IMG/VR virus record: IMGVR_UViG_3300025728_000372
Coordinates: 1-42,225 of that record
DNA length: 42,225 nt
Source: a virus
Reading direction: 5' to 3' (one strand)
Both the position numbers and the translations under genes were made by a program. Positions 32,939-42,000 of the stretch are shown piece by piece; position 1 is the first letter of the stretch; each line of letters starts with the position of its first letter. The notes below the pieces were generated by a model. That model made no database searches, was not told where the DNA came from, and saw only the letters and a list, made by a program, of their open reading frames with translations.

Positions 32939-35407
32939 ATGAAACAAGTAAATTTTAATCATGAAGGAGGATTTCCTCTCGAGCAAGAAACTTTAGAAAG
33001 ACTTCAAACAGCTTACAGGTCTGAGTTGTACGAAGCTTTAAAAAGACATTTTAGCATAGATCTTACTAACGATTATATTCTGGCTCATGCAACAAGTCAG
33101 CAAAAAGGCTGGGCAGTTATCCGTCAGGAAGATCCCGTAAACCCAGGAAATCAGGTAGGAATTTTGTATCCTATTGCTATTGGAGCTCAAACACCTTATT
33201 TAAAAACCATCAGAACTGATATAAATTTAATCTACGGAACCAGCGCATCTCAAACTGCTTATTATGATTATGAAGCTGAATATAGCTTACAGAAATATAA
33301 TGATGAGGTTGTGGTTACTAAAAGTGGCGACGTGCAAACAATCAAATATTATGATGTAAACAATTTGGTGCCTGTTACAGATATCAAAACAATCGATGAA
33401 ATTCTGGCAGCAATAAATTCCAGTATTGATGCAATCCAGGCTAACATTAATGTCATTGAAGGAAATATCAATGCAATCGAAACAAACATTGATGTAATTG
33501 AAGGAAATGTTACTACAATTAAAGGCGATGTTACTGCAATTAAAGGAAACATCAATGCTATCGAAACAAACATTGATACAATTGAAGGTGATGTTACTCA
33601 AATAAATGGTTATTTAGCAAAAGCTTTGGTTGATACCAGTATTCCTGGAACGTCAAATCTTACTCTAAATTATCAGTCAAACTGGACAAACACTCATGTA
33701 GGCGGAAAAATATATTTAGACAATACCAATACAAGTTCTGAAGATTTTATCCTTGCTAAAACCTCACCACATTCTTTATTACTAACTGATAATGCAAGCC
33801 AAGTCTTTAAAAGTAATAACCTGCTAGATTCATTACTTAAGCGAATTACTAAGTTAGAGGAACAACCAGCATCGGCAATACCTTTTGGAATGGTGGCAAT
33901 TTGGGGAAAACCTGCGCCGTTTCCAGAAGGATGGGAAGAATATGTTCCGTTGAAAGGAAAAATGCCTGTAGGACTTCAGACTTTTACTGCTGAAGAAAAA
34001 AGTGATGCACTAGACGGAGATGGCGGTAATGGTCTTAGTTATTACAGAGATATTTATGGTTCAGCAATTTTCCCTTTTGAAGGAATAGGAACTGCCGGAG
34101 GAAGAATGGGCAAAAAAATAAGCATTAATGAAATGCCTACTCATACCCATACGGAGACAAGGGTAAAAGAAGGATTAGGTTCAATAATTAATTTTGAAGC
34201 GGTTGGTGATGACGGTCATTTAGGATATGAATCTATTGCATCTGGACCTGCCGGTGGAGGACAATCTTTCCCATTTTTGAACCCATACAGAGTAGTTCAT
34301 TTTATCGAATACACAGGACGCCCAAGTGATAAAACAGCACCAACAGCACCAACTTTAACAGCACCAGCAGCAAGCATTGGTACTACAAGTATATCTTTAA
34401 ACTGGTCAGGATCAACTGATGAATTTGGTGTTACTGAGTACATTGTATATGGAAACGCTATTTCGCCAATCTCTGTAGGTAATGTTTTTAACCGAACTAT
34501 TTATGGATTAACTCCTGGTACACCTTACACATTTTATGTTGTCGCAAAAGATGCAGCTGGAAACACATCGCCTTCCAGCAATGTTGTAGAGGTAACCACA
34601 TCGACAATAGTGGCGCCTACAACACCACAAAATGTATTATGTTATTTACAAGATAGAAATGAAATCTATCTTCAGTGGGATAACTCAACAAATAATAATG
34701 GAGCTGCTATTTATTACGAAATATGGAGAAGAAGAAATGCTGGAGGTTATGTTCAAATTCCTGGTCTGATTTCTACTAATTATTATACTGATACTGATTT
34801 AGCATACAGTACAACATATTCTTACTATATAGTAGCCAGAGATGCTGTCAACAATCTATCTGGTATTTCTAATGTCGTTTCAGAAACTACATTAACCGCT
34901 TCAGGAGGCGGAGGTGGCGGATGTTTCGATATAGAATCTTTGGTAACTATGGCATCAGGACAATCTAAAAAATTGAAGAATATTGAAATTGGCGACAAAC
35001 TTCAAGGATTTTCTTTCCCGAATGAAATCGATGAATCTGACGGAGATTACATGATTTGGAACGGAAAACTAAATGAAGCTGCCAAAGTAGAAGTAACAGT
35101 CGTAAACAAAAGAGCAAGTTTACAACCTAATTATTTCGAAATCAAAACGACAGATACGACTATTAAAGCTACCGGACAACACCCGCTATTGGTGACTGAA
35201 GACGGTGAAAATGTAAAATGGGTTTGTGTAAAAAATGTGTCACAAGACATGTTATTAATTGACAAAACAGGAAAAACAAAAGCTATTGAATCAATCGTTT
35301 TTAAAGAAGAACCTTTAGAAGTATTACTTCTGGATGTTGAAGACGTTGATAATTATGTTATTTCCGGAATTGTTGCTCACAACAATAAACCTGAAGAAAT
35401 GCAATAA
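32939..35407 (+). CDS. Collar-domain tail fibre with two FN3 domains and a C-terminal Hint/intein-like domain (822 aa)
   Basis: Domains in order are: a baseplate-binding part (1-150); heptad repeats at about 158-220 (INVIEGN, INAIETN, IDVIEGN and so on), a trimeric coiled coil; a tail-collar domain (about 310-460) with PFGMVAIWGKPAPFPEGWEE, NEMPTHTHTE and NPYRVVHFIEY; two fibronectin III domains (about 464-556 and 558-655); a GGGGGG linker; and a 154-residue Hint domain. The Hint domain begins at Cys662 (CFDIESLVTM), has a TxxH block (ATGQHPLLV) and ends GIVAHN (His814-Asn815), followed by seven residues (NKPEEMQ). The residue after the terminal Asn is Asn, not Cys/Ser/Thr, so canonical splicing is not expected. 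Cleavage, or ligation of the fibre's C-terminus, is possible. Confidence 0.85.
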   Translation: MKQVNFNHEGGFPLEQETLERLQTAYRSELYEALKRHFSIDLTNDYILAHATSQQKGWAVIRQEDPVNPGNQVGILYPIAIGAQTPYLKTIRTDINLIYGTSASQTAYYDYEAEYSLQKYNDEVVVTKSGDVQTIKYYDVNNLVPVTDIKTIDEILAAINSSIDAIQANINVIEGNINAIETNIDVIEGNVTTIKGDVTAIKGNINAIETNIDTIEGDVTQINGYLAKALVDTSIPGTSNLTLNYQSNWTNTHVGGKIYLDNTNTSSEDFILAKTSPHSLLLTDNASQVFKSNNLLDSLLKRITKLEEQPASAIPFGMVAIWGKPAPFPEGWEEYVPLKGKMPVGLQTFTAEEKSDALDGDGGNGLSYYRDIYGSAIFPFEGIGTAGGRMGKKISINEMPTHTHTETRVKEGLGSIINFEAVGDDGHLGYESIASGPAGGGQSFPFLNPYRVVHFIEYTGRPSDKTAPTAPTLTAPAASIGTTSISLNWSGSTDEFGVTEYIVYGNAISPISVGNVFNRTIYGLTPGTPYTFYVVAKDAAGNTSPSSNVVEVTTSTIVAPTTPQNVLCYLQDRNEIYLQWDNSTNNNGAAIYYEIWRRRNAGGYVQIPGLISTNYYTDTDLAYSTTYSYYIVARDAVNNLSGISNVVSETTLTASGGGGGGCFDIESLVTMASGQSKKLKNIEIGDKLQGFSFPNEIDESDGDYMIWNGKLNEAAKVEVTVVNKRASLQPNYFEIKTTDTTIKATGQHPLLVTEDGENVKWVCVKNVSQDMLLIDKTGKTKAIESIVFKEEPLEVLLLDVEDVDNYVISGIVAHNNKPEEMQ
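33461..33598 (+). repeat. 84-base direct repeat encoding heptads in the collar fibre
   Basis: The stretch beginning GGAAATATCAATGCAATCGA at 33461 recurs with few changes at 33545, an 84-base period equal to four heptads (28 residues). Repeat-number changes here would lengthen or shorten the coiled-coil shaft without breaking the frame. Confidence 0.75.
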
Positions 35408-35419
35408 ATAATAATCTAT

Positions 35420-35456
35420 AATAATCTTTTGGGGCATAAAACCCCAAAAGATTATT
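35420..35456. terminator. Perfect 15-bp hairpin after the Hint fibre, no T-run
   Basis: AATAATCTTTTGGGG (35420-35434) pairs exactly with 35442-35456 around a 7-base loop. There is no poly-T tract, so it may be an attenuator or 3'-end stabiliser rather than a full terminator. Genes after it run in the same direction without a visible activator box, so some transcription probably passes through. Confidence 0.5.
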
Positions 35457-35972: not shown

Positions 35973-36443
35973 ATGATGCATAAAATCTCAGAATATTCAA
36001 ATGAACTAAAATTACTGCTTTATGGAGTCTTTATGTACCTGGAAATGGATGTAGAAATTGTCAAAGTTCTGTTTTACTTAATGGTAATGGATACTTTTCT
36101 GGGCATAATCAAAACCATCGTATTAAATAATGCTTTTAGCTTTAAAAAATTAGCCTTGGGATTTGTATCAAAACTTGCCGTATTGCTAATACCAACAGCT
36201 CTGGCATTAATGAGTAAAGGACTTAATTACAACTTTAAATGGTTTGTAACCATAGTAATGGATTTACTTATTGTTAGCGACGGAATTTCTATAATCAGCA
36301 ACATAATTGCCATAAAAACAAAGAAAGAAGTCGAAAATTTCGACGCAATGACCTTGATTCTTAAATCAATAAGAGAACGTTTGATACAACTATTCAAACG
36401 CCTTTTAATCACAATCGATCCTAAATACCATATCGAAAAATAA
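35973..36443 (+). CDS. Phage holin family protein (156 aa)
   Basis: About four hydrophobic segments are seen: LKLLLYGVFMYLEMD, VKVLFYLMVMDTFLGIIKTI, FVSKLAVLLIPTALALM and WFVTIVMDLLIVSDGISIIS. The tail is charged. The phrase LMVMDTFLGIIKTIVLN with later ISIISNIIAI fits the Bacteroidota members of the phage_holin_4 (toxin-secretion/lysis) family. It would let the endolysin encoded at 28845 reach the cell wall. The start could be the first or second Met. Confidence 0.8.
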   Translation: MMHKISEYSNELKLLLYGVFMYLEMDVEIVKVLFYLMVMDTFLGIIKTIVLNNAFSFKKLALGFVSKLAVLLIPTALALMSKGLNYNFKWFVTIVMDLLIVSDGISIISNIIAIKTKKEVENFDAMTLILKSIRERLIQLFKRLLITIDPKYHIEK

Positions 36444-36560: not shown

Positions 36561-36956
36561 TTGAAAGTAGAAACTAAAAATGCGCCTTACCAATTAGAAC
36601 GAATATTTAAGATTAGAAGAATAAAAAACACAATTGATCTCAGCGAATCCTTTTCTGTTGTGAACAAAAAAGCATCTGCAGCATTCTTTAACGCAGAAAT
36701 TTACAAAGTAACCTTTACCGCCATAATACAAACAAAACTAAAAACTTATGATCTGTTCTTATCCGGCAATGAATTGATTTGTGACGAGGAAATAGAAAAC
36801 CTAAAAAAATCCCTCGACATAATCATTGCCGGAGACGGATCACAATTTGAAATACTTGACTACAAAACAGATTTTATCATTCAGTTTGATCTCGAAAACA
36901 GTTCTTTTCTTGAATCTGATGAAGTTAGGAATGGTTTAATCGTTTTTACGAAATAA
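36561..36956 (+). CDS. Unrecognised protein with TTG start (131 aa)
   Basis: The frame has a stop 10 bases before the TTG and no early in-frame ATG, so TTG is the probable start. The protein is a mix of strands and helices with FKIRRIKNTIDLSESFSVVN, YKVTFTAIIQTKLKTYDLFL and DEVRNGLIVFTK. There is no signal peptide and no motif I recognise. It lies between the holin gene and the first beta-propeller fibre, all on the same strand, so it may be a small tail or fibre accessory protein. Confidence 0.6.
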   Translation: MKVETKNAPYQLERIFKIRRIKNTIDLSESFSVVNKKASAAFFNAEIYKVTFTAIIQTKLKTYDLFLSGNELICDEEIENLKKSLDIIIAGDGSQFEILDYKTDFIIQFDLENSSFLESDEVRNGLIVFTK

Positions 36957-37009: not shown

Positions 37010-39079
37010 ATGATAAAAAATAATATTAATAAGTCTCTTGAAGAAGCATCTTCACAGGTCCAGATTATTAGCAAGCCTCTAAAATTAGAGTCTGTTAATG
37101 AAGGCAGTAACGAAGATGATGTACTTGTGCGAGGTGCCGACAACACTGTGAAATTTATCCCTCAAAGTTCTTTAGGTGGTGGCTCGGCTATTTCTGTGAC
37201 TAAATCAGAGTTAGATAATCTGATAAATAATAATTCTTTGATTCCAGGTGCTTATTACAAAATAAGCGGAGTTCATCCTTCTTTATATGATGATGGACCT
37301 TTGAGTGGAACTACAATATTTTTACAAGCTCTAACAGAAAACACTTTATTTAAAGAAGGACATGGATTATTTTATAATCCAAAATATGATCAATCGATCG
37401 ATGGATTCAATATATGGAATTCAAAGGCTTTTATACAAAATAAAGCCGGATATTATGAGCAAGTATTATCCCGTACCGGAAATAATCCACAAAGTATAGT
37501 TGTTGATAGTAATGGCGTTGTTTATACGGCTAACGCAAACCCTGTTCCAGGAGGCAGTGGCGTTACAAAAATCTTACCTAATGGAACAAAAATTGATATA
37601 GATACATCAAATAGATCCAGAACAGATAAATTGTGTATAGATTCCGATGATGTTGTTTATATGATAGGCGATTTCGGAGGAACAGTTTCTAAGCTAGATT
37701 CATCTGGTGTTTTATCTACATTGGCAGATTTGGGAAGAAATGGTAATGGAGACATATGTGTAGATTCAAACGGAAACGTATATGTTGCAAATTCCACGTA
37801 TCAAGATGTTATTAAAATTTCGCCAAACGGATCCTTTAAAATTCATGGAACTTGTGGGAATGGAAATCTTAGTATGTGTTTAGATGACGATGCCAATATA
37901 TATGTTGCACATGGAGGCGGCTATGGTATTACAAAAATTTTACCTGATGGAACATCAAGTGTTTTTGCAACACTAGGAACAGGGCCGCAAGATATTTGTT
38001 TTTCTAGCCTAACTGGAAATTTATATGTTAGCACTAGTACGGGACCAGTAATAAAAATCCGGCCAGATGGAACAACAAGTGTTTTCGCAACAATAGGTAC
38101 CGCGTCAGTTCCCTCAAGAGGCCTTTGTTTGGATTCTGAAGATAATGTTATTGTTCTTAACAACTATACTTCACGTGTGTTCAAAATAACTCCTGATGGT
38201 TCATCAACTGTAATTTATGACAATCCTTCTTTTTACACGCCTTTTGCTGTTTGCTCTTCAGGTAACGATTTATATTTTATAAACATGGATTCAAACAATG
38301 TTGTTAAACTTTCCACAAATGAACCAGAACAGTCGTATTCTATAGGAGATAAAACAATTTGGGGAGGATATTCCTGGACAAACAATTCAGGAGCAAAAGG
38401 ACAATATTACGATCAATTCACATTGTCTTATGATTGGACAAAAGATCAATATAATGACGATAATTATAACAAAGTTTTAGATATAATTGAATATGATTAT
38501 CCTAACGATTGGATCTCTCGCAGATACGAAACTGAATCAGGATGTGATGTAATCTATACTAAATCTGATTATGATAATTTTGGTAGAGAATCTGCAATAA
38601 AAACATTTCAATTTGGCAATCCTTTTAATTCTAACTTTTATAAAGGAATTTCAAATATTACAGTTTCTCACTCCTATTTTGACAACATTAATTTTGTTGG
38701 AAGTTATCAAAGATCGATAATTTTAAATTCTGCCGAGCAATCCAATTGCATATTTGGACCAAATAGTTATCAGGAATATTTAACTTTTTCGGGAGGATCT
38801 AGTCAACAGGGTGTTGAATTTAAAAGGAATTCCGGACAAACTCAATGCACCTTTGAAGAAAGCTCTAACTCAGGAAACTATCTAATACCATCAAATTCTA
38901 CAATGTCAAATTTAAGTTTGCTTAAAAACTCAAGCATTCTTAATGTTTCTGCTATTGAAGATTCATTACTTTTTAATCCTTCTATTTTAAAGGAAATATA
39001 CAATAGACCTGATGGTACAACTAAAATCCGTTATTACGATAACGAGGATAATTTAGTTATAAGCGACATTAATGACTAA
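37010..39079 (+). CDS. Fibre protein with NHL-like beta-propeller (689 aa)
   Basis: Residues 15-60 (QIISKPLKLESVNEGSN, VKFIPQSSLGG) match the N-terminal module of the 400-aa fibre at 7932, here without a signal peptide. NNSLIPGAYYKISGV matches a phrase in the 668-aa fibre. From about 160 to 430 there are repeated blades with the pattern D-S-x-G-x-VYVAN...VxKI-PDGT, typical of NHL/SMP-30-like beta-propellers. The C-terminal part (about 440-689) is fibre-like, with KTIWGGYSWTNNSG and a probable beta-helix. A propeller head would serve in receptor binding. Confidence 0.75.
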   Translation: MIKNNINKSLEEASSQVQIISKPLKLESVNEGSNEDDVLVRGADNTVKFIPQSSLGGGSAISVTKSELDNLINNNSLIPGAYYKISGVHPSLYDDGPLSGTTIFLQALTENTLFKEGHGLFYNPKYDQSIDGFNIWNSKAFIQNKAGYYEQVLSRTGNNPQSIVVDSNGVVYTANANPVPGGSGVTKILPNGTKIDIDTSNRSRTDKLCIDSDDVVYMIGDFGGTVSKLDSSGVLSTLADLGRNGNGDICVDSNGNVYVANSTYQDVIKISPNGSFKIHGTCGNGNLSMCLDDDANIYVAHGGGYGITKILPDGTSSVFATLGTGPQDICFSSLTGNLYVSTSTGPVIKIRPDGTTSVFATIGTASVPSRGLCLDSEDNVIVLNNYTSRVFKITPDGSSTVIYDNPSFYTPFAVCSSGNDLYFINMDSNNVVKLSTNEPEQSYSIGDKTIWGGYSWTNNSGAKGQYYDQFTLSYDWTKDQYNDDNYNKVLDIIEYDYPNDWISRRYETESGCDVIYTKSDYDNFGRESAIKTFQFGNPFNSNFYKGISNITVSHSYFDNINFVGSYQRSIILNSAEQSNCIFGPNSYQEYLTFSGGSSQQGVEFKRNSGQTQCTFEESSNSGNYLIPSNSTMSNLSLLKNSSILNVSAIEDSLLFNPSILKEIYNRPDGTTKIRYYDNEDNLVISDIND

Positions 39080-39096
39080 CTTAAAAACACACAAAA

Positions 39097-42000
39097 ATGA
39101 CTAAGAAAAAATACGGAATTAGAACAGTAAACGGTAATGAACCTGATCCGGAAACAGGAAATATTAATATATCAGGTGGAGGTTCTCAGGACTTACAATC
39201 TGTTCTAGGCACTGGCCATAATGCAACCAATGCTTTTATGACAATAGGTGATGAAAATGCATTGTATTCTCTTATTACAAATACAAATGTATCGGCACTT
39301 GACGTTAATTTTGACAGAAGATCTGATTTACTTACTTATGGTTTAGCAGTAACTAACAATTCTGAAAATAATTATACTAACTACTATAAAGATGCTGTTA
39401 CACATTCGACACAAGACAACCTAAAATCTAATAAACTTGTATGGAAGAAACTTACGGATGGAAACAGTGAATATAAATTTCCTGAAAAACCTTCTGGGAG
39501 TTATACTTTAGCCACAAAGGATGAAATTCCAAATCCTCCAACTTTACAGGATGTGGTAAATAATAATAACAATTTAAGCACTCAAATTAATTTTATTGCC
39601 CCAGGAGTTACTTTCCCTAGCTTTATAAATAGTCACTTGCTAGAATTTAATGATTCTGATGGTAATCAGGTATTATTAAATTCAAAAGTATTACAGTTTG
39701 GCAGTTCTACAATAAATACTAAATTAAACGGAAGTGGGAATGGTGACTTTTATTTTCCAGATATTGGAGCGAGTACAAGTGCAACCCTAGCGATTACAAA
39801 TGATTTAAAAGATGCTACTAATTCGATAAAAGGATTGGTCAGATTAAATGGTGATTTAGGAGGAACGGCAGATGCACCAACAGTTCCGGCATTATCAGGG
39901 AAACAAGCTACATTAGTGTCAGGTACTAATATTAAAACCATTAATGGAACCTCATTATTAGGTTCTGGTAATATAACACTACCTACTGGAGGGGCTGTAA
40001 TTAGTGGTTCTGCTAATTATCTTCCTAAATTTAATAGTAATGGAGATAACATTGTAAATAGTAATGCGGTATCTAATAATAATGAGTTACTAATTCAGGG
40101 AGATAATGGAAAATCCGGACTTAGGTTTACAAACATACGTTCTGAGGATAAGTTTGTAAAAACTAAATTGGATTTAAGTAAGTACTTTGTATCTATAAGT
40201 GCCAAATGCGGGCTTGACATTAATGAAAATTCGTACTATCAAGACAACACAACAACACAAATTATCAAGGTTACTCCAGACAAAAAAATTACTATTATAC
40301 GGTTTCCGGCACAAGTTTACATCAACACTTGGTGTAAGGATTACTTAGGAAATATTTACTTTATTGGTAATAATAGAATTTTATACAAGATTGACTCCAA
40401 AGGAGTTTTAACTGAACCCATTTATGACAAAACTGCTTTAACTCTGGTTAATAAAATAGGTATAGATCGAGCTAATAATATCTTCTTAGGGAAATATGGC
40501 ACTGCCGAAATTTATAAACTTGATTCGTCGCTGGCAGTAAGCTTATTTATCACCTTACCTACGAGTAATTTTAATGTTGTAAACACTAACTTCTTATTTG
40601 ATGCAGCTAGTAATATGTATACCGATATAGGATTAGGAGGTGCTAGTTTTTACAAAATAAGCCCTGAAGGAGTAATTCTCTATACCGCTTATGGACCAGG
40701 AACAAATTCTTATGGGTTCAATTTCATCTGGTTGGTTGATGATGTGGTTTATCTGTTTGGGGAGTCCTATACTGGTAGCAATAACTGGGATGTAAGTAAA
40801 ATATCTTCTACAGGTATTCCAACTTTAATTGGAACATTAGTTCAATCTACATATGGCAGAATGAATTCTGTCGAATTATATGAAGGAAATATTTATTATA
40901 CTAAATTTGATGAAGCCACCTTTAATAAATTTGATCCAGTTGGTTTGACTCTTACTACTCTGGATACCTATGATAGTGCAGGCGGCGTATTTAACATGAC
41001 ACCAAAAGGAGTATTTAATATTCTCTCGGGTACAGGAATTTTTAATACCATTACCAAAGTAAATAGAGGAAATAGAACTACATCTACTGGCGAAATTGTA
41101 ATGGATGATTTCTATAAATCGGACAGATTAGTACTTGATACGCCGCTACAAATCAATAGTTCTGTAAATATTAACTCTCTTAAAAACTCATCTAATTATA
41201 CTTATAACAAATCTGCCGAATGGGATCTTGGAGCTGTAGTTGATATTGTAGAAGATACAGCAGGAAATATTTATCATTTAGTTGGCAGTTCAATTTACAA
41301 GACTAATTATAAAGAAGAATCCACTTTATTTGCTACCGTTGGATCGACTCCAATAGCAATGGTTATAGGAAACGATATAATTTATACTGCAAACTCCGGA
41401 GATAATACAGTATCCAAAGTAACAATGGCAGGAGCTGTAACTACATTTGCTACAGGGATAGCATCGCCAAAAAATATGTTATTCGATTCCTTAGGCAATC
41501 TTATTATACATACTCAGGTAAGTGCAAGCGCCTTAATTAAAATAACTCCTGCCGGAATCAAAACAGCTATTGCAACTTTACCATTTGGTCATAAAAATTA
41601 TTTAACAATCGATGCAGCGGATAATTTATATACTACCCAACTTTCGACCAACTACATTTATAAAACAACAATGGCCGGTACTGTTGCAAGATTAGGTACA
41701 ACAAGTGGTACTATTATTCAGGGGCCTTTAGATTCCAATGTTCGTTTAGTCACTAATACCGGATTTAATTATACAATGGATAATACAACTGGGGTTACAA
41801 CTGACCTAGGTTACTATTTACCATATTCCATTGTCAACACTACTCCTATTATTTATCAAGGAGGAAGTTATTATTATGCAGCGGGTAATTCATTAAGAAA
41901 ACTGGATCCTGTTACTAAATTAGCTACTACTTTAGTAATTGCTCCAACTACAATAAGTAAATACAAAATTGCATCTAATGGTATATTATGGGTAGCTAGT

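Follow-up and report, generated by a model that had tools for sequence, protein, structure and literature searches.

A candidate self-processing, BIL-like Hint domain at the C-terminus of a phage tail fibre, and the lysine in its short tail

A predicted tail fibre of 822 residues, encoded in a viral DNA stretch of 42,225 nucleotides (IMG/VR record IMGVR_UViG_3300025728_000372; hereafter ‘the window’), ends in a Hint domain that resembles the bacterial intein-like (BIL) domains and is followed by a tail of only seven residues. Our leading, still tentative, reading is that this is a working Hint of the A-type BIL kind which would process itself and be removed from the end of the fibre, with a lysine in the tail as the probable acyl acceptor. 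The chemistry of the superfamily is known, and the terminal, lysine-tailed form on phage fibres appears to be undescribed in the literature open to search: the papers available (mostly not subscription) yielded no description of a Hint that ends a phage fibre. We know of no settled biological role for BIL domains; a Hint that is terminal, optional, strongly selected and lysine-tailed would make such a role directly testable, with naturally Hint-less fibres as controls.

Results

The fibre gene and its setting

The near relatives of the fibre are found in Flavobacterium genomes and their prophages, and its gene (Table 1) lies between tail genes and a holin gene (positions 35,973 to 36,443; Phage_holin_4_1), in an order that is the same in all 20 related prophages examined. 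The initial annotation, made from the sequence, had described a Hint domain that follows two FN3 domains and a GGGGGG linker at the tip of a tail-collar fibre. Its sequence details are all correct: the translation contains Gly656 to Gly661, two stretches match FN3 (Pfam fn3, E = 4.6e-11), and the 154-residue length from Cys662, the TxxH block B, the His814-Asn815 end and the seven-residue tail starting with Asn are exact. The collar label is kept because of a motif and of similarity to a tail protein of Tenacibaculum phage PTm1, with the reservation that the fibre gave no Pfam collar match, only a weak one to Gp10_C (E = 0.034); the C-terminal position of the Hint suggests that it occupies the physical tip. 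Downstream, positions 37,010 to 42,225 encode two large adhesin-like proteins, one of 689 residues with NHL/SMP-30-like repeats and one of 1042 residues, a kind of which the prophage's left end also has several copies.

Table 1. Features of the fibre gene, in window coordinates.
Feature	Position	Strand	Basis
Tail-fibre CDS, 822 aa, Hint at C-terminus	32939..35407	+	ORF translation; strong homologues in ~20/300 Flavobacterium genomes
Conserved N-terminal attachment module, residues 1-106, common to Hint-less fibres	32939..33256	+	homologue comparison
Collar-like region, residues ~311-465	33869..34333	+	motif; similarity to phage PTm1 tail protein; weak Gp10_C
FN3 domain 1, residues 477-551	34367..34591	+	Pfam fn3
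FN3 domain 2, residues ~556-655, fast evolving	34604..34903	+	second Pfam fn3 stretch, borders approximate
Gly656-Gly661 linker, absent from some relatives	34904..34921	+	sequence; alignment of relatives
Hint/BIL-like domain, Cys662-Asn815, 154 residues	34922..35383	+	profiles, predicted fold, alignment
Cys662 (Cys1), putative N-S acyl shift nucleophile	34922..34924	+	invariant 21/21
Block B, T745-G-Q-H748	35171..35182	+	Thr and His invariant 21/21
Block F, Asp799 (D799...Y)	35333..35335	+	invariant 21/21
Block G, His814-Asn815, putative Asn cyclisation site (Asn815 codon 35381-35383)	35378..35383	+	invariant 21/21
C-terminal tail of seven residues, NKPEEMQ	35384..35404	+	sequence; family tail lengths 7-14
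Lys817 (+2), proposed acyl acceptor	35387..35389	+	Lys at +2 in 19/21 relatives, any Lys 21/21; 23/23 clusters
Terminator-like inverted repeat 3' of fibre stop	35420..35456		read from sequence; similar one after Hint-less fibre (G002, G246 compared)

Residues 662 to 815 form a BIL-like Hint domain

Profile and fold searches confirm residues 662 to 815 as a Hint domain, far beyond chance. In isolation they score above the cut-offs of PT-HINT (PF07591; 33.3 bits, cut-off 27.7) and TIGR01445 intein_Nterm (28.6 bits, cut-off 24.5), and narrowly below that of Intein_splicing (PF14890; 33.4 bits, cut-off 35.8). An AlphaFold2 model from a 20-sequence alignment (pLDDT 85.9, pTM 0.82), superseding one from five close sequences (pLDDT 48.9), has the fold of the HINT superfamily, in agreement with the PT-HINT score: it matched 60 PDB structures at E ≤ 0.001, all of the matches listed being Hint, intein or Hedgehog domains, and among its best matches in a viral structure library are phage proteins whose names refer to FN3 or Hint domains. 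Also present are the superfamily's Cys/Ser nucleophile and block-B Thr and His (Cys662, T745xxH748; 21/21 homologues).

The assignment to the BIL-like group, rather than to splicing inteins, bears out the initial annotation and is supported by two features. The PDB ranking is headed by BIL2 of Tetrahymena (6y75; E = 9e-10, TM 0.74/0.81), followed by the Clostridium thermocellum BIL (2lwy; TM 0.70/0.84) and then by mini-inteins. As in A-type BIL domains, a C-terminal His-Asn (21/21) is followed by no conserved nucleophile, position +1 accepting seven different residues in the fibre family (N in 11, S in 4, T in 2, and A, D, K and L once each; n = 21). Where a class 1 splicing intein has Cys, Ser or Thr at +1, this domain has Asn816; nor does it interrupt a conserved host site, because Hint-less homologues stop at FN3 with no equivalent of the seven residues that follow this terminal domain. 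The same seven residues leave no toxin domain after the Hint, as a Pretoxin HINT of the polymorphic toxins would have.

The Hint is an optional module

Searching 300 Flavobacterium genomes with the N-terminal module gave matches in 25, about 20 of them strong. Of the 20 prophages whose fibres were read throughout, 12 have the Hint; in seven the fibre ends after FN3 (G184, G185, G246, G114, G009, G280 and G203), and one (G285; L089, ~1880-1930) has an A-run frameshift just inside the Hint, the remainder being readable in another frame, which is either recent decay or a sequencing error. A tree built from eight neighbouring proteins requires three or more gains or losses of the Hint, and in the close relatives G002 (with Hint) and G246 (without) the flanking DNA is 91-93% identical whereas the distal fibres, Hint included, differ as a block. 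The Hint is therefore dispensable to the fibre, at least in these prophages.

The domain's mobility as part of a module, visible in the replacement of the whole distal fibre between G002 and G246, would suit a remnant or passenger of a mini-intein lodged at a harmless C-terminal site. We regard such an origin as highly improbable, given that there is no endonuclease, that at least 23 separate clusters have the terminal layout (see below), and that in several comparisons the synonymous sites have almost saturated with the protein conserved, a dN/dS contrast that disfavours it.

A gene for a 131-residue protein with no assigned family (36,561 to 36,956) is restricted to Hint-bearing prophages, occurring in 10/14 of these and 0/7 of the Hint-less ones. 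This gene and the adhesin-like genes downstream were considered as partners of the Hint and set aside as a lead only: the raw association is strong and is not independent on the tree, where three Hint changes give three pairs and no power for a test. It would fit a reading in which the fibre-Gly thioester is passed in trans to an amine outside its own chain, whether on an adjacent fibre chain, on a different tail protein or on the surface of the target, fixing the fibre end covalently, much as BIL2 attaches its ubiquitin-like N-terminal partner to lysines of other proteins (PMC8616854). Conjugation of this kind seems improbable here, the 131-residue gene being absent from several Hint-bearing prophages and its association lacking phylogenetic independence; a waiting thioester would, besides, have to outlast the reducing cytosol.

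Conservation and selection

Cys1, the block-B Thr and His, the block-F Asp, the Tyr, and the block-G His and Asn are each present in 21/21 distinct Flavobacterium homologues. Because 65 of the 154 Hint positions are invariant in these sequences, catalytic invariance inside the family is supportive rather than decisive. When the more distant relatives are compared, the Hint has dN of 0.07-0.12 at dS of 0.7-2.0; the adjoining FN3 has dN of 0.5-1.0 at dS of 0.6-1.5 in most comparisons, and the C-terminal tail changes fast. Judged by these rates, the Hint is the most constrained part of the fibre and under strong purifying selection. Its low dN despite high dS indicates that it is old and constrained, not merely recently copied, and recent transfer as the sole cause of its high identity is ruled out by dS. 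A short tail follows every His-Asn in the family, so that the bond for Asn to cut is always present. A poly-Gly stretch was excluded as a required element by relatives with DPIDIQ, EGEYS or DPN directly before Cys1.

A folded cap that catalyses nothing could also be under purifying selection. The Hint fold might serve only to close the fibre end or bind a ligand, with its catalytic residues kept for the fold; given the 65 invariant positions, the weight of catalytic invariance alone is small in this family. We consider an inert cap quite unlikely, since the catalytic residues are fixed in homologues at 21-27% identity (a set partly chosen for them) and are retained in most Flavobacterium Hints found by profile. 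In this latter set nearly all members keep Cys1 or Ser1 and His-Asn, the exceptions being L239 and L254, without His-Asn, and L264, with Ser1 and His-Ser.

Terminal Hints in other phages

Scanning IMG/VR with the pattern Gly4-Cys-Phe-x3-Thr gave at least 80 readable loci, of which a simple motif marked at least 69 as Hint-like. Two architectures were prominent. In one, a long central tail fibre of the gpJ-like kind has the Hint near its N-terminus; in the other, the Hint is terminal, with a few residues after it. Two scans, the Flavobacterium survey and phage NCTB together provided at least 81 terminal Hints, mostly on phage tail proteins and falling into at least 23 clusters at a 50% identity threshold; these counts are lower bounds that depend on the motif and measure breadth, not frequency. 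The patterns demanded Cys1, mostly with Gly before it, and the survey therefore says little about decayed copies. Past the His-Asn, the tails are mostly 3-14 residues long.

Several other arrangements were seen. Unrelated Flavobacterium proteins of 290-400 residues that start with MGNTGYKSF (L241-L247; L249, 9201-10076) end in a Gly-rich linker, a Hint and an HN-x-K tail, the gene in L249 lying in a phage-tail-like cluster beside proteins of 1410 and 1054 residues. Dozens of gpJ-like central tail fibres (L098-L177, e.g. L106, L113, L121 and L165) have the Hint about 15 residues from the N-terminus, in the form GAGGGG/C...HN/AGLG..IAGAGGGGGGKGGGG (slashes marking the domain borders), Gly-rich on both sides and mostly with Ala or Gly at +1. 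Phage NCTB (L006; LT598654, 98275-106649) has three adjacent tail genes annotated with intein domains, one of which encodes a 153-residue protein that is nearly all Hint and ends in VHNKVD. Tandem Hints, the second Cys1 a few residues past the first His-Asn, occur in L400, L439, L491 and L496.

A lysine in the tail

With one tail taken per cluster, lysine is present in 23/23 tails, where length-matched C-termini taken from other open reading frames in comparable loci predict 10.2 (P = 7e-10); two DUF5977-like tails that apparently lack it were probably misparsed at a second His-Asn. Arginine occurs in 5 tails against 8.6 expected across the 23 clusters, and no residue other than lysine is enriched. 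That Lys is enriched and Arg is not suggests that the amine rather than the charge is what matters. Since the idea of a lysine came from these same data, a further scan was made with another motif, which added five clusters. The tail could be read in four of these, and Lys is present in three of the four (L471 being without). Within the fibre family Lys stands at +2 in 19/21 members and somewhere in the tail in 21/21 as the rest of the tail drifts, and in other clusters the first Lys falls anywhere from +1 to +11.

Internal phage Hints, too, often have a lysine shortly after His-Asn, which may be a general Hint trait. In ordinary inteins with Cys, Ser or Thr at +1, 16 junction sequences lack Lys throughout positions +1 to +8; these represent only some four or five host sites, at which the host protein dictates the flanking residues. 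Phage Hints with and without a +1 nucleophile showed no contrast in Lys, four of the five nucleophile-bearing ones having it, in a set too small for comparison.

Self-removed C-terminal domains occur in tailspikes, and the fibre Hint too might be expendable, shed during maturation after, perhaps, helping the fibre to fold or assemble. Water or cell thiols would then cleave the thioester, Asn815 would cyclise independently, and the tail lysine would be chemically idle. The optional presence of the Hint at the fibre end fits such plain cleavage, as does the finding that BIL domains without a +1 nucleophile yield mainly cleaved products (PMC7664689). We think it somewhat unlikely, for it explains neither the enrichment of lysine and no other residue in the tails nor the retention of lysine in a tail that otherwise drifts.

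Discussion

A possible route to fibre processing

The reactions described here, their order, the part played by lysine and the state of the fibre in the particle are what we infer. The three outcomes suggested in the initial annotation, a freed fibre C-terminus, its covalent attachment to a nucleophile on another protein or the target surface, and removal of the last seven residues, would each be compatible with the sequence. In the favoured route, Cys662, aided by Thr745 and His748, would take the Gly661 carbonyl in an N-S acyl shift to form a thioester, and Asn815, aided by His814 and Asp799, would cyclise and cut the chain before Asn816. An amine of the short tail would then resolve the thioester, the Lys817 side chain being favoured and the new N-terminus or water the alternatives. 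The 17-kDa Hint would depart, and the mature fibre would end in its Gly stretch, either free or bearing a short peptide.

In a 2004 study that is cited in PMC7765530, Dassa et al. reportedly proposed that an amine released when Asn cyclises is able to attack the thioester. That proposal, the cleavage by BIL domains noted above and the joining of the N-terminal partner of BIL2 to other proteins by an isopeptide bond to the lysine ε-amine (PMC8616854) together make it most likely that a thioester would form, Asn815 would cyclise and a tail amine or water would resolve the thioester.

Should the tail lysine act in this way, it would take the place of the +1 nucleophile of inteins in a covalent finishing of the fibre that needs neither ATP nor a separate enzyme, and would offer a compact natural module for protein-to-lysine ligation with potential use in protein chemistry. 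The lysine-marked tails, here and in nearly all unrelated phage proteins of this build, suggest that such phages chemically rework their own fibre ends. The broader statement, that BIL-type domains have repeatedly been put at the ends of phage tail and fibre proteins and that the tail lysine resolves the thioester into an isopeptide-capped or cross-linked fibre end, is one we consider doubtful.

Comparison with known systems

The closest known relative in fold is BIL2 of Tetrahymena BUBL1 (PDB 6y75, 6tmm), which shares Cys1, the block-B His, the C-terminal Asn and a protein partner N-terminal to the domain. A lysine isopeptide product has been reported for BIL2 (PMC8616854) and is only proposed for the fibre Hint. 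BIL2 differs in belonging to a eukaryotic, polyubiquitin-like, zinc-regulated locus, in its identity to the fibre Hint (18%), and in having a further ubiquitin-like domain, not a seven-residue tail, after it. The C. thermocellum BIL shares the fold, Cys1, the His-Asn end and the lack of a fixed +1 nucleophile; BILs of its type have been described chiefly from bacterial toxins and from variable proteins that bacteria secrete, whereas the domain described here closes a phage fibre and carries a lysine-marked tail. Class 1 inteins such as DnaB and gp41-1 have the same fold and blocks A, B, F and G; unlike them, the fibre Hint has no Cys, Ser or Thr at +1, a C-extein of only seven residues and no endonuclease.

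Among phage proteins, the ‘tail protein, contains intein domain’ of phage NCTB (LT598654, SBV38305; 28.7% identity over 77% of the query) likewise has a Gly-Gly-Gly-Cys Hint and a His-Asn followed by seven residues with lysines, and is encoded in a tail-fibre cluster; it differs in being a collagen-like fibre with an unrelated N-terminal part, and is known from annotation alone. The intramolecular chaperone autocleavage domains of tailspikes and fibres offer an analogy, as C-terminal phage-fibre domains that remove themselves, a removal that is proposed for the fibre Hint, whose fold and chemistry are unrelated to theirs.
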